In this document: piece by piece, positions 20,441 through 23,634 of the stretch
How the letters are laid out: each line of letters begins with the position of its first letter
Numbering within the stretch: the stretch's first letter is position 1
Source: a virus
Length of the DNA: 39,941 nucleotides
Virus record (IMG/VR): IMGVR_UViG_3300020214_000044
Span: 1 to 39,941 of that record
Direction: 5' to 3' (one strand)
Position numbers and translations under genes: made by a program
Notes under the pieces: model-generated
Seen by the model: only the letters and a program-made list of their open reading frames with translations
What the model was told of the DNA's origin: nothing
Database searches by the model: none

Positions 20441-20479
20441 CTTGGCGCGTAGTTAGCTTTGTGCGACACTGCGCGACCA

Positions 20480-22030
20480 GTGATCGGCGGCAAGATTATC
20501 CACGGCGACTGCCTCGACGTACTGCGGACTCTCCCTGCCGCTAGTGTAGACTCCGTCGTCACCGACCCGCCGTACGGGCTCGCGTTCATGGGCAAGCGGT
20601 GGGACTACGACGTGCCGAGCGTCGAGGTCTGGGCCGAGTGCCTGCGGGTGCTGAAGCCCGGCGGGCACCTGCTCGCGTTCGCCGGCACGCGCACGCAGCA
20701 CCGCATGGCGGTCAAGATCGAGGACGCGGGCTTCGAGATCCGCGACATGATCGCGTGGGTGTACGGCTCGGGTTTCCCGAAGTCGCTCGACGTGAGCAAG
20801 GCGATTGACAAGACGGCTGGTAGTAGCGGTGAGCGTGGCCCGATGAAGCGCGGCGGCGAACGACTCGCGAGACTAGCCGATGGCAGGCGTAATGGAGATG
20901 GCCGATGGGGCGATGAGTCCGGGCGCGATCCGTTTACCTACATTGCCACCACCGCTGCCGCTCGTCAGTGGTCCGGCTGGGGCACCGCGCTCAAGCCCGC
21001 GCTGGAGCCGATCACCGTGGCGCGGAAGCCGCTGGTCGGCACCGTTGCGGAGAACGTGCTCGCGCATGGGACGGGGGCGATCAACGTCCACGGGTGTCGG
21101 ATATCGGCATTGACAGGCCAGCGGCCCGATGCTACATCGACCGCATGGGCACCAGAAAAGAACCTCTGCGATTCGTGTGCAGGGCTTGCGGAAAGCCCTG
21201 CGAAACCCGGAACACCGGCAACAAGGGGCAGTTCTGCGGGAAGCCCTGCCGTGCCGACTACGAGCGGAAAGGGCGAGATCGCCCGCGCCGATACCGGCAA
21301 GGCCGATACTGGATGCTCTGTTGGACTGTTCCCGGAGGAACCGGCGACCGACCGAACCGCCGATTCCAGTTTGAGCACCGGCGCGCTTGGGAGGATGCAC
21401 ACGGGCCAATCCCGGCAGGCTACGAAATCCACCACGTCAACGGCGACGGATTCGACAACCGACTTGAGAATCTGCGCTGCGTGCGGATGTTCGATCACCG
21501 ATCAGGGCATAAGCGGAAGTACGCTAGCATCGCAGACCGCAACGCCGAGTACGCCCGCCGGGCAAGGGAGCGGCGCAGCCGGAAGATGGCCGAGTAATTT
21601 CATCCACGACGGCAGCGACGAGGTGGTGGGGCTGTTTCCGAATGTGAAAGCGGGCGTGGCCGTGCGGCATCGCAGCGGCGGGAAGAACTGTCATAGCGAC
21701 ACCGACAAACCGCCAATGGATGACATGGGCTACGGCGACTCCGGCTCCGCCGCGCGCTTCTTCTACTGCGCAAAGGCGAACAAGCGGGACCGTGGCGATG
21801 GTAACAACCACCCGACGGTCAAGCCGACCGACCTGATGCGCTACCTCTGCCGCCTCGTGACGCCGCCGGGTGGAACGGTACTCGACCCGTTCATGGGCAG
21901 CGGCAGCACCGGAAAGGCCGCGCTGCTTGAAGGCTTCCGCTTGATCGGCATCGAGCGCGAGGCCGAGTACGTGGAGATTGCGCGAGCGCGGATTGCCGCG
22001 ATCGACCCGCTGTTCGGTGTAGCGGTATGA
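20480..22030 (+). CDS. Site-specific DNA methyltransferase (N6/N4, DPPY type) split by a nested HNH gene
   Basis: Motif order is that of beta-class amino-methyltransferases: DPPYG at residues about 29-33 (catalytic motif IV), then C-terminal VKPTDLMRYL (motif X) and LDPFMGSGSTG (motif I, about 468-478, AdoMet binding). The 516 residues are long because about 159 codons of low-complexity Ser/Thr/Ala-rich sequence lie between GCRI (near 206) and GRWPSN (368-373), where relatives as I know them carry a short loop. An HNH gene occupies that stretch in another frame. The GTG at 20480 is my choice; a TTG at 20459 would add seven residues. The stop overlaps terL (ATGA). It may protect phage DNA from restriction. 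Confidence 0.8.
   Translation: MIGGKIIHGDCLDVLRTLPAASVDSVVTDPPYGLAFMGKRWDYDVPSVEVWAECLRVLKPGGHLLAFAGTRTQHRMAVKIEDAGFEIRDMIAWVYGSGFPKSLDVSKAIDKTAGSSGERGPMKRGGERLARLADGRRNGDGRWGDESGRDPFTYIATTAAARQWSGWGTALKPALEPITVARKPLVGTVAENVLAHGTGAINVHGCRISALTGQRPDATSTAWAPEKNLCDSCAGLAESPAKPGTPATRGSSAGSPAVPTTSGKGEIARADTGKADTGCSVGLFPEEPATDRTADSSLSTGALGRMHTGQSRQATKSTTSTATDSTTDLRICAACGCSITDQGISGSTLASQTATPSTPAGQGSGAAGRWPSNFIHDGSDEVVGLFPNVKAGVAVRHRSGGKNCHSDTDKPPMDDMGYGDSGSAARFFYCAKANKRDRGDGNNHPTVKPTDLMRYLCRLVTPPGGTVLDPFMGSGSTGKAALLEGFRLIGIEREAEYVEIARARIAAIDPLFGVAV
21110..21138 (+). promoter_or_regulatory. Candidate promoter for the nested HNH gene
   Basis: TTGACA (21110-21115), a 17-base spacer and TACATC (21133-21138) place the predicted transcription start at or next to the ATG at 21145. 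No ribosome binding site is visible, so a leaderless mRNA is possible. The -10 match is only three of six. Confidence 0.4.
21145..21597 (+). CDS. HNH homing-type endonuclease nested in the methyltransferase gene
   Basis: The 150-residue product has an N-terminal Cys knuckle (CRACGKPC then FCGKPCRADY), a basic beta-rich middle, and a clear HNH_3-type active site around residues 90-112 (EIHHVNGDGFDNRLENLRCV), followed by a helical Arg-rich tail. It is read in the +2 frame relative to the methyltransferase. Its last codons (RKMAE, stop) coincide with the methyltransferase codons for the conserved GRWPSN. HNH enzymes of this type commonly nick or cut DNA at an insertion site. A homing function for this copy is inferred from its position. 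Confidence 0.85.
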   Translation: MGTRKEPLRFVCRACGKPCETRNTGNKGQFCGKPCRADYERKGRDRPRRYRQGRYWMLCWTVPGGTGDRPNRRFQFEHRRAWEDAHGPIPAGYEIHHVNGDGFDNRLENLRCVRMFDHRSGHKRKYASIADRNAEYARRARERRSRKMAE

Positions 22031-23634
22031 TCGGCGGCAAGGCGATTGATGACCCGGCCAAGTTCGTAGCGGACCTGTCCGACGATGAGTTGAAGAAGCT
22101 ACTCGTCGAGACGACGCACGAGGCCGAAGAAATCCAGAAGACTACCGCGTTCCAGCGGTTCCAGCCCCTTCCCTACCAAGTCGACTTTCTGAAGTCCCAG
22201 GCCGAGGTCCGAGCCTTCATCGCCGCCAACCAGATCGGCAAGACGGCCACGGGGGCCATCGTCACCATCGGCGCGGCGCTCAACGACAAGCCTGCGGCGC
22301 TGGGTGGCTCCGGTGCCGGGCGCTGGCCGCGCGACAAGCAGCGCGGCAAGCGGTACTTCGTCGGCGGCGAGACGTTCGACTCCTTGCGGGACAACATCAT
22401 CCCGAAGCTCCGCGAGTACGTGAGCCTCGGCTCGATGCTGAAGGGACCGCCGAAGCGCAACGCGCAGGGGCTCGACGTGACGTGGAAGTTCGTCACGGGT
22501 GCCGAGGTCCACCTGATGTCCTACCAGCAGCCTACGGATGCGTTCGAGGGGGCGCCGTGGGACGGTGCCTGGTTTGACGAGCCGCCGCCGCAGACGATCT
22601 TCAACGCGGTGCGACGCGGCCTGATGGCGCGCAACGGCTGGACCATCATGACGATGACGCCGCTCAAGGAGGCGTGGATTCTCGACGAGTTGATCCGCCC
22701 GTCCGAAGACCCGGAGCACCCGTTGTATGGCAAGGTCGAGGTGTTCGGCGCGCGGATGCACGATAATTGCTTGGAGTGTCACGGCGGTTATCTGCCGCAC
22801 GACCGCATCGAGAGCTTCCTTGCTTCTCTGCCGCCGAAGGAGCGCAAGGCGCGCGAGTTCGGTGAGTTCTTGGACCTGCAGGGGCTCGAGTTCGACTACG
22901 TGACGGACGAGACGCACGTTGTCCCTGACTTCGACACGTACCGCGCGTGGCCGATTGTCGAGATAATCGACCCGGCGATGAAGCGCCCGCTGCACGCGAT
23001 GTGGTTCACGGTGGACCCGGACGAGTATTGGTACTGCGTCCACGCGGCGCTGATACCCAACGACGGGTTTCGCCGGATGGTGATGGACATCCAGAAGCAC
23101 CGGGCGTTCGTCGGGCGGCAGCCGGACGTTGCGATCATGGATCAGCGCGGCGGGCAGCACCGGGTGGACATCGACCGGCAGATGGACTGGTTCCAGAAGT
23201 TCCACGAGGCCGGGATCAGGTACGAGAAGTCTACGGACGGGCATGTGCAGAGCTTGCACGACTGGCTGCGCCCGCAGTTCGACCCGGTGAAGGGTGAGCG
23301 CCTGGTACCGAAGCTCAGGTTCTTCAGGCACGTAGCGGACATGGATCAAGGCCCGATCTGGGGCTTCAGGAGGTTTGTATGGAGTCCAACGGACTCGACG
23401 AGACGGCAGTACGAGCAGAAGGGCAAGGACTGGGTGGACTGCGCGATGTACCTGCGGCTAGCGAATCTGACGCACCGCCGCCTAAGCGCAAGAGAGGACG
23501 CCCCCGAAAGGTCAAGCCTTGCATCGACGTACTCGACGCAGCGGGAGTCGACGCGCCCGCAGCGGCGGAAGGGGCCGGCACTGAGCAGCAGCTACGGCCC
23601 GTGGGAGAAGCTGATTCAGAGAGGCTACTCCTAG
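22027..23634 (+). CDS. terL: Terminase large subunit (packaging ATPase and nuclease)
   Basis: The 535 residues show a deviant Walker A (AANQIGKTATG, about 67-76), Walker B (GAWFDEPP, acidic pair at 184-185), and a C-terminal RNase H-like nuclease with candidate Asp residues at 330/332 (FTVDPDEYW), 372 (IMDQRGG) and 471 (WVDCAMYL). TerL pumps DNA into the procapsid through the portal and cuts concatemers. ATG overlaps the methyltransferase stop. The last 85 codons are overprinted by another gene in the +2 frame; the overprinted end beyond about residue 482 is Ser/Arg-rich and probably dispensable. Confidence 0.95.
   Translation: MIGGKAIDDPAKFVADLSDDELKKLLVETTHEAEEIQKTTAFQRFQPLPYQVDFLKSQAEVRAFIAANQIGKTATGAIVTIGAALNDKPAALGGSGAGRWPRDKQRGKRYFVGGETFDSLRDNIIPKLREYVSLGSMLKGPPKRNAQGLDVTWKFVTGAEVHLMSYQQPTDAFEGAPWDGAWFDEPPPQTIFNAVRRGLMARNGWTIMTMTPLKEAWILDELIRPSEDPEHPLYGKVEVFGARMHDNCLECHGGYLPHDRIESFLASLPPKERKAREFGEFLDLQGLEFDYVTDETHVVPDFDTYRAWPIVEIIDPAMKRPLHAMWFTVDPDEYWYCVHAALIPNDGFRRMVMDIQKHRAFVGRQPDVAIMDQRGGQHRVDIDRQMDWFQKFHEAGIRYEKSTDGHVQSLHDWLRPQFDPVKGERLVPKLRFFRHVADMDQGPIWGFRRFVWSPTDSTRRQYEQKGKDWVDCAMYLRLANLTHRRLSAREDAPERSSLASTYSTQRESTRPQRRKGPALSSSYGPWEKLIQRGYS

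Follow-up and report, generated by a model that had tools for sequence, protein, structure and literature searches.

Two genes in one stretch of phage DNA

The window, i.e., the whole 39,941-nucleotide stretch of viral DNA analysed here (IMG/VR record IMGVR_UViG_3300020214_000044), carries a DNA methyltransferase (MTase) gene within which a second gene, coding for an HNH endonuclease, lies in another reading frame. The features of this locus are as follows:

20459..22030 (+): host N6/N4 MTase gene, 523 codons in an uninterrupted frame (PF01555, 1.4e-32)
20459..21109 (+): MTase N-terminal block up to GCRI, with TDPPYG (PF01555 alone, 1.7e-10; delimited by alignment with insertion-free relatives)
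21110..21586 (+): insertion segment in the MTase frame, 159 codons, Ser/Thr/Ala-rich and predicted disordered, bounded by the GCRI and GRWPSN blocks
21110..21115 (+): -35-like TTGACA, 8.8 bits, present in L099 too
21130..21138 (+): extended -10-like TGC-TACATC, 17 bp after the -35 and 6 nt before the ATG, weak alone
21145..21597 (+): nested HNH_3 homing-type endonuclease gene, ATG start, 150 aa, frame offset 2, such that the host frame is the HNH frame +1
21178..21249 (+): HNH zinc-knuckle Cys cluster C12, C15, C31, C35, invariant in 14 relatives
21376..21483 (+): HNH_3 core, Pfam residues 78-113
21581..21598 (+): right junction, conserved host codons GRWPSN, whose AGT AAT yields the HNH stop TAA (21595-21597)
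21587..22030 (+): MTase C-terminal block with DPFMGSGSTG (PF01555 alone, 3.3e-21)

The MTase gene starts with TTG, with an alternative GTG start at 20480, and matches PF01555 (N6_N4_Mtase) at 113.9 bits versus 26.7, the TDPPYG and DPFMGSGSTG motifs sharing one frame. A second IMG/VR contig (L089) codes for HNH and MTase proteins that are 100% identical to those of the window. The initial annotation had described the N- and C-terminal MTase blocks as lying in one uninterrupted frame with a Ser/Thr/Ala-rich stretch of about 159 codons between them, and this description holds: each half is recognized by PF01555 on its own, all 523 codons are open, and the intervening stretch is present, without a confident Pfam match. 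Its Ser/Thr/Ala richness only reflects GC content, the loop of the relative L091 not being rich in these residues, and its identity to the host-frame inserts of relatives ranges from 0.19 to 0.50. AlphaFold2 modelling predicts that the MTase core folds (pLDDT 70–95 over most of it), whereas the insertion, at pLDDT of about 23–36, is predicted to be disordered.

The product of the second frame had been read as a 150-residue HNH_3-type endonuclease with a Cys knuckle. This is borne out by its match to PF13392 (8.8e-15; 54.5 bits versus the gathering score of 24.8) and by the invariance, among 14 relatives, of the Cys cluster as well as of H96, H97, N99, D104, N105, N109, H118 and H122. Window-type HNHs also mostly share their start (MG..) and their end (RKMA-stop). 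The AlphaFold2 model of the HNH has a pLDDT of 84 and its best fold match in the PDB is I-HmuI (1u3e; Foldseek probability 0.96), at a non-significant E of 0.21; a PDB sequence search with the HNH profile returned no match and a profile search of genome contigs with the HNH alignment no confirmed relative. The second frame of the MTase holds a complete gene for a likely self-spreading, DNA-cutting enzyme.

Relatives, reading-frame phase and selection

Window-type HNHs, 48–67% identical to that of the window, are nested in the MTases of L009, L016, L099, L104-L107, L110-L113, L091 and L090, the last at a different MTase site, and the host frame is open in every one of them, including L111 at 44% GC. 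Two loci show signs of disruption: in L090 (2300-3805) the MTase C-terminal block lies out of frame downstream, reflecting sequencing error or decay, and in L108 (2828-3433) the MTase appears eroded, with the gene start joined to a later part and no MTase match, while the nested HNH is intact and its +1 frame open.

Counting four further HNH families along with the window type, about 110 non-redundant nested loci are found in MTases and inteins, mostly on metagenomic contigs. ShiLan-type HNHs occupy another site of the same MTase family (L003, L004, L015, L119), the BUCT618 type sits at SKAIDK of the MTase (L002, L144-L155), and the L048 type between the AKASK and HPTVKP blocks. L015 (2950-4614) has an MTase N block close to that of the window but a ShiLan-type HNH at the ShiLan site, such that MTases akin to each other can differ in both the element they carry and its site. 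L002 (Escherichia phage BUCT618; 1486-3348) is annotated as a site-specific DNA methyltransferase, and within it an unannotated 201-aa zinc-finger HNH protein (1899-2504) lies out of frame at a site unlike that of the window. The MTase of L004 (Mycobacterium phage Starcevich; 351-3512) appears to hold an intein as well as a ShiLan-type HNH lying out of frame.

A further family, here family i, comprises about 65 non-redundant loci with intein splicing blocks in one frame and the HNH in another, the assignment to inteins being based on sampled host frames, whose N- and C-terminal intein blocks were read. Examples with a +1 HNH are L092 (2809-3627), L094 (2923-3549), L098 (2120-3037) and L143 (905-1561). 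Several of these intein-nested HNHs lie in large-terminase genes; L098, from Tetrasphaera phage TJE1, is annotated as terL.

The host frame is HNH +1 in 109 of the 110 non-redundant fully nested loci, the single +2 case being L210 / L212 (2429-2980), inside an intein. All the nested HNHs from which the search was started are in phase +1, which inflates the nested fraction and could have let elements of other phases in unrelated HNH families escape notice. At all nested loci the host frame is free of stops, down to 25–40% GC. An A never directly follows the start codon in the nested genes (0/104, versus 19/47 in standalone ones), because ATGA would stop the host frame. Two causes of the phase rule are plausible: the +1 frame of HNH proteins is poorer in potential stops than the +2 frame, and an upstream TTGACA-16/17-TATAAT-6 nt arrangement keeps its TGA and TAA out of the +1 frame.

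To what extent such openness exceeds chance was gauged by randomising synonymous codons at the base composition of each locus and scoring for an open host frame. For the window HNH alone the +1 frame stays open with P 0.16, and the second frame of the window taken by itself is therefore not significant. The joint probability is about 1e-64 over 28 nested representatives and about 1e-20 over 13 window-type members, values that are too small because the nested loci share ancestry, although synonymous sites at 50–60% amino-acid identity are largely independent. In the BUCT618 type, at 34–40% GC, the host frame is open whereas fewer than 0.1% of randomised sequences are. The +1 frame has no stops in 6129 codons of 36 nested HNHs versus 96 in 3310 codons of standalone relatives.

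This pervasive openness also bears on the possibility of a self-splicing intron, of group I or another kind, carrying an HNH ORF, with the open host frame incidental. HNH genes commonly ride on group I introns. However, an intron would not need a stop-free +1 frame in all nested cases at such low GC contents, the HNH ORF fills nearly all of the insertion with only ~35 nt left over, and no Rfam match to a group I or group II ribozyme core was obtained in the whole window or, at permissive thresholds (E up to 1), in the insert. An intron is hence very unlikely. Inspection of alignments likewise revealed no intein splicing blocks at the ends of the insert, and the host frame there has no confident Pfam match. 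The proposed distinction of this arrangement from both inteins and introns is thus upheld, with the HNH out of frame, no intein blocks and no Rfam-detectable intron.

Divergence within the nested DNA indicates which of the two frames is under selection. In the HNH frame of the window family it is greatest at codon position 3, followed by 1 and 2 (means 0.53, 0.35 and 0.31), the mean identity over the same nested DNA is 0.56 in the HNH frame versus 0.36 in the host frame, and the fastest-diverging host-frame positions over the insert are second positions. Thus, the HNH product is conserved and the host-frame polypeptide tolerated: selection acts on the HNH frame, while the host-frame insert merely stays stop-free. 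Were the MTase-frame loop instead a functional, selected part of the enzyme, such as a zinc domain or one for target recognition, with the HNH frame as a by-product, the CxxC pairs that recur in the loops of some relatives would find an explanation, but not their loss from L091, the lower host-frame identity with its fast second positions, the predicted disorder of the loop or the invariance of the HNH catalytic residues. This alternative is extremely unlikely. A functional role for the CxxC pairs was rejected as such, for they arise from HNH codons (LRFVC, NLRxM) and vanish in L091, which is AT-richer.

Junction, neighbourhood and start signals

At the right junction the HNH stop had been placed on the codons for GRWPSN, and the TAA at 21595-21597 indeed lies inside AGT AAT. 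The motif reads RWPSN in 10/12 inserted alleles and RWPAN in 32/35 of the others, and an HNH-frame stop is found at the junction in 11/12 inserted alleles versus 1/35 others. Host codons are recoded here from RWPAN to RWPSN, by which the HNH stop arises, and the change looks like a co-conversion with the element. The initial annotation had expected insertion-free relatives to run directly from GCRI to GRWPSN; instead, they have a variable linker of about 30–45 residues there, and the insertion therefore replaces or has absorbed that linker. A loop without an HNH frame, which by the initial annotation would refute its reading, was not found, every locus with the loop having an HNH.

The insertion is missing from most of the best ~80 MTases, and within the window family the identities of HNH and MTase are weakly correlated (rho 0.32). 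With the window read from the identical L089, the HNH and MTase are respectively 67% and 57% identical to those of L099, and 51% and 65% to those of L113; for L002/L144 of the BUCT618 type, the values are 94% and 63%. The junction recoding, the weak correlation and the L002/L144 pair indicate, at the level of sequence comparison, lateral movement between divergent MTases. No near-identical insertion-free allele of the window MTase was found, and no empty-site allele of the BUCT618 MTase among E. coli genomes and phages. These comparative data support the earlier proposal of a mobile HNH gene that entered the MTase in another frame and left the host frame open.

The gene adjoining the MTase (22027-23634) reads like a large terminase, with a weak match of unknown function in PHROGs. 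HNH enzymes assist some terminases (PMC11855218), and the apparent terminase next door would suit an HNH that serves phage packaging; yet the neighbours of nested relatives vary between loci, and the patchy presence and site-specific nesting of the HNH suit a selfish element, making a packaging function quite improbable. It was rejected on the ground that the neighbourhoods are not conserved.

As regards expression, a promoter candidate, TTGACA-17-TACATC, had been proposed to precede the ATG. Its sequence and spacing are exact, with a 6-nt gap to the start codon, but the -10 (TACATC, 21133-21138) is weak, scoring 1.2 bits, and is missed by a strict promoter scan. The homologous position reads TACAAT in L016 and L105, TACACT in L009 and TAAACT in L106. 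When a -10 matrix was scored at each distance from the start codon, a single peak emerged at -12, which corresponds to the 6-nt gap, and a -10 at this position is present in 13/29 hand-curated representatives. In a larger set of 42 MTase-nested, 62 family-i and 47 standalone genes, with start codons assigned by rule, it occurs in 13/42 and 8/62 of the nested genes, i.e., 21/104 together, versus 0/47 standalone ones (Fisher versus standalone: 2e-5 for MTase-nested, 0.01 for family i). Genes with a -10 at -12 never have a Shine-Dalgarno, while others do; by the rule applied, 17/42 MTase-nested genes have neither. Several nested genes also have a good -35 box 16–17 bp upstream, e.g., TTGACA-16-TATAAT-6-ATG in L150, and host SKA(I/L)D codons make up the -35 of the BUCT618 type. 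From these patterns we infer that nested HNH genes with such a -10 would use promoters of their own. A gap of 6 nt between the -10 and the start codon would place the transcription start on the start codon itself, implying leaderless mRNAs.

Alternatively, -1 ribosomal frameshifting might yield the HNH as a fusion to the MTase: relative to the host its frame is -1, and in the window (and the same DNA in L089) the HNH frame is open for 76 codons upstream of the ATG. However, start codons are conserved, and in L009, L112, L113 and L002 a stop closes the HNH frame no more than two codons ahead of the start, which excludes frameshifting from the MTase in these cases and points to internal initiation. 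For the elements at large, frameshifting is accordingly highly unlikely.

An out-of-frame homing element and its known counterparts

Taken together, the two open frames, the selection on the HNH, the avoidance of stops, the phase rule, the conserved junction and the lateral mobility, all apparent from sequence comparison, are best seen as marks of an out-of-frame homing element, i.e., a free-standing-type HNH gene lodged where a phage MTase has its variable linker, a reading that we hold at a probability of roughly 0.85. The MTase would be translated straight through the insert without splicing, thereby gaining a disordered loop of ~150 residues, and would presumably be active, and translation of the HNH protein would begin at an ATG inside the host gene, its mRNA probably being leaderless and transcribed from a promoter of its own. 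MTase alleles without the insertion would be cleaved by the endonuclease at the conserved site around GRWP(A/S)N, and their repair would bring in a copy of the element along with a few flanking bases, amounting to homing. Selection would then preserve HNH function and, in the host frame, freedom from stops alone.

It is also fairly probable, albeit with less assurance, that these loci represent a general class of overprinted homing elements, with the host frame at HNH +1 and stop-free, no A after the start codon and, in many, a sigma70-type promoter with a gap of 6 nt from the end of its -10 to the start, giving a leaderless mRNA independent of the host gene, and with a form residing in inteins too. 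The phase rule would then arise because TTGACA-16/17-TATAAT-6-ATG and the make-up of the HNH leave mainly the +1 frame stop-free. If this is true, the intein form uncouples the endonuclease from the splicing protein. More generally, a single stretch of DNA holds a selected mobile gene in one frame, which a second gene tolerates by staying stop-free, and such tolerated overlap is seen many times, nearly always in the same phase. Annotation of one frame misses such endonucleases, as in the BUCT618 MTase and TJE1 terL entries.

The first description of an HNH lying out of frame in a phage methylase, under the name ShiLan domain, dates from 2025 (PMC11855218; in parallel, PMC9957025), and a later genome note concerns the same kind (PMC12613952). 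How such hidden endonucleases are expressed was left open by the 2025 description, the text of PMC11855218 making no mention of a promoter; this is now testable as an own promoter with a leaderless start, or a Shine-Dalgarno, rather than frameshifting. As far as searched, the phase rule, the -10 exactly 6 nt before the start, the intein architecture and the RWPAN to RWPSN recoding that creates the HNH stop are new: the literature searched yielded no paper dealing with the phase rule, with the leaderless spacing or with HNHs lying out of frame in inteins, although a preprint on actinobacteriophage inteins with a 'Non-Canonical Architecture' (bioRxiv 10.1101/2025.01.02.630785) may cover the intein part.

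By its sequence the window element is of the same kind as ShiLan, with a different HNH family and site. The two phage MTases are related, and in both an insertion encodes the HNH in a second frame with the MTase frame open, the HNH stop falls at the right junction with a recoded residue after it, the distribution is patchy and there is no intron or intein signature; Mycobacterium phage Starcevich (L004) and Pollywog (L003), which carry the ShiLan kind, likewise have the host frame at HNH +1. They differ in that the window HNH is a 150-aa HNH_3 protein with one N-terminal Cys4 knuckle, whereas ShiLan has 195 aa and two zinc fingers, the two being only weakly similar (30% over 120 aa, E about 1e-3); in the site, which is the GCRI-GRWPSN linker in the window and upstream of the ARKPL block in ShiLan; and in the start signals, promoter-like up to the ATG in the window but an SD-like GGAGG in the ShiLan types examined. 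The hidden HNH insertion of Pacc40 gp60 (PMC11855218) is, going by its description, likewise an HNH lying out of frame within a phage methylase; its position and the methylase family both differ from those of the window.

Among more distant counterparts, I-HmuI shares the HNH core and is the closest solved fold, but it is encoded in a self-splicing group I intron, whereas no intron is detected in the window. Similarly, inteins with homing endonuclease domains resemble the window in being a selfish endonuclease gene that leaves the host ORF open; in an ordinary intein, however, the endonuclease is in frame and spliced out, while that of the window is out of frame and its surroundings have no splicing blocks.
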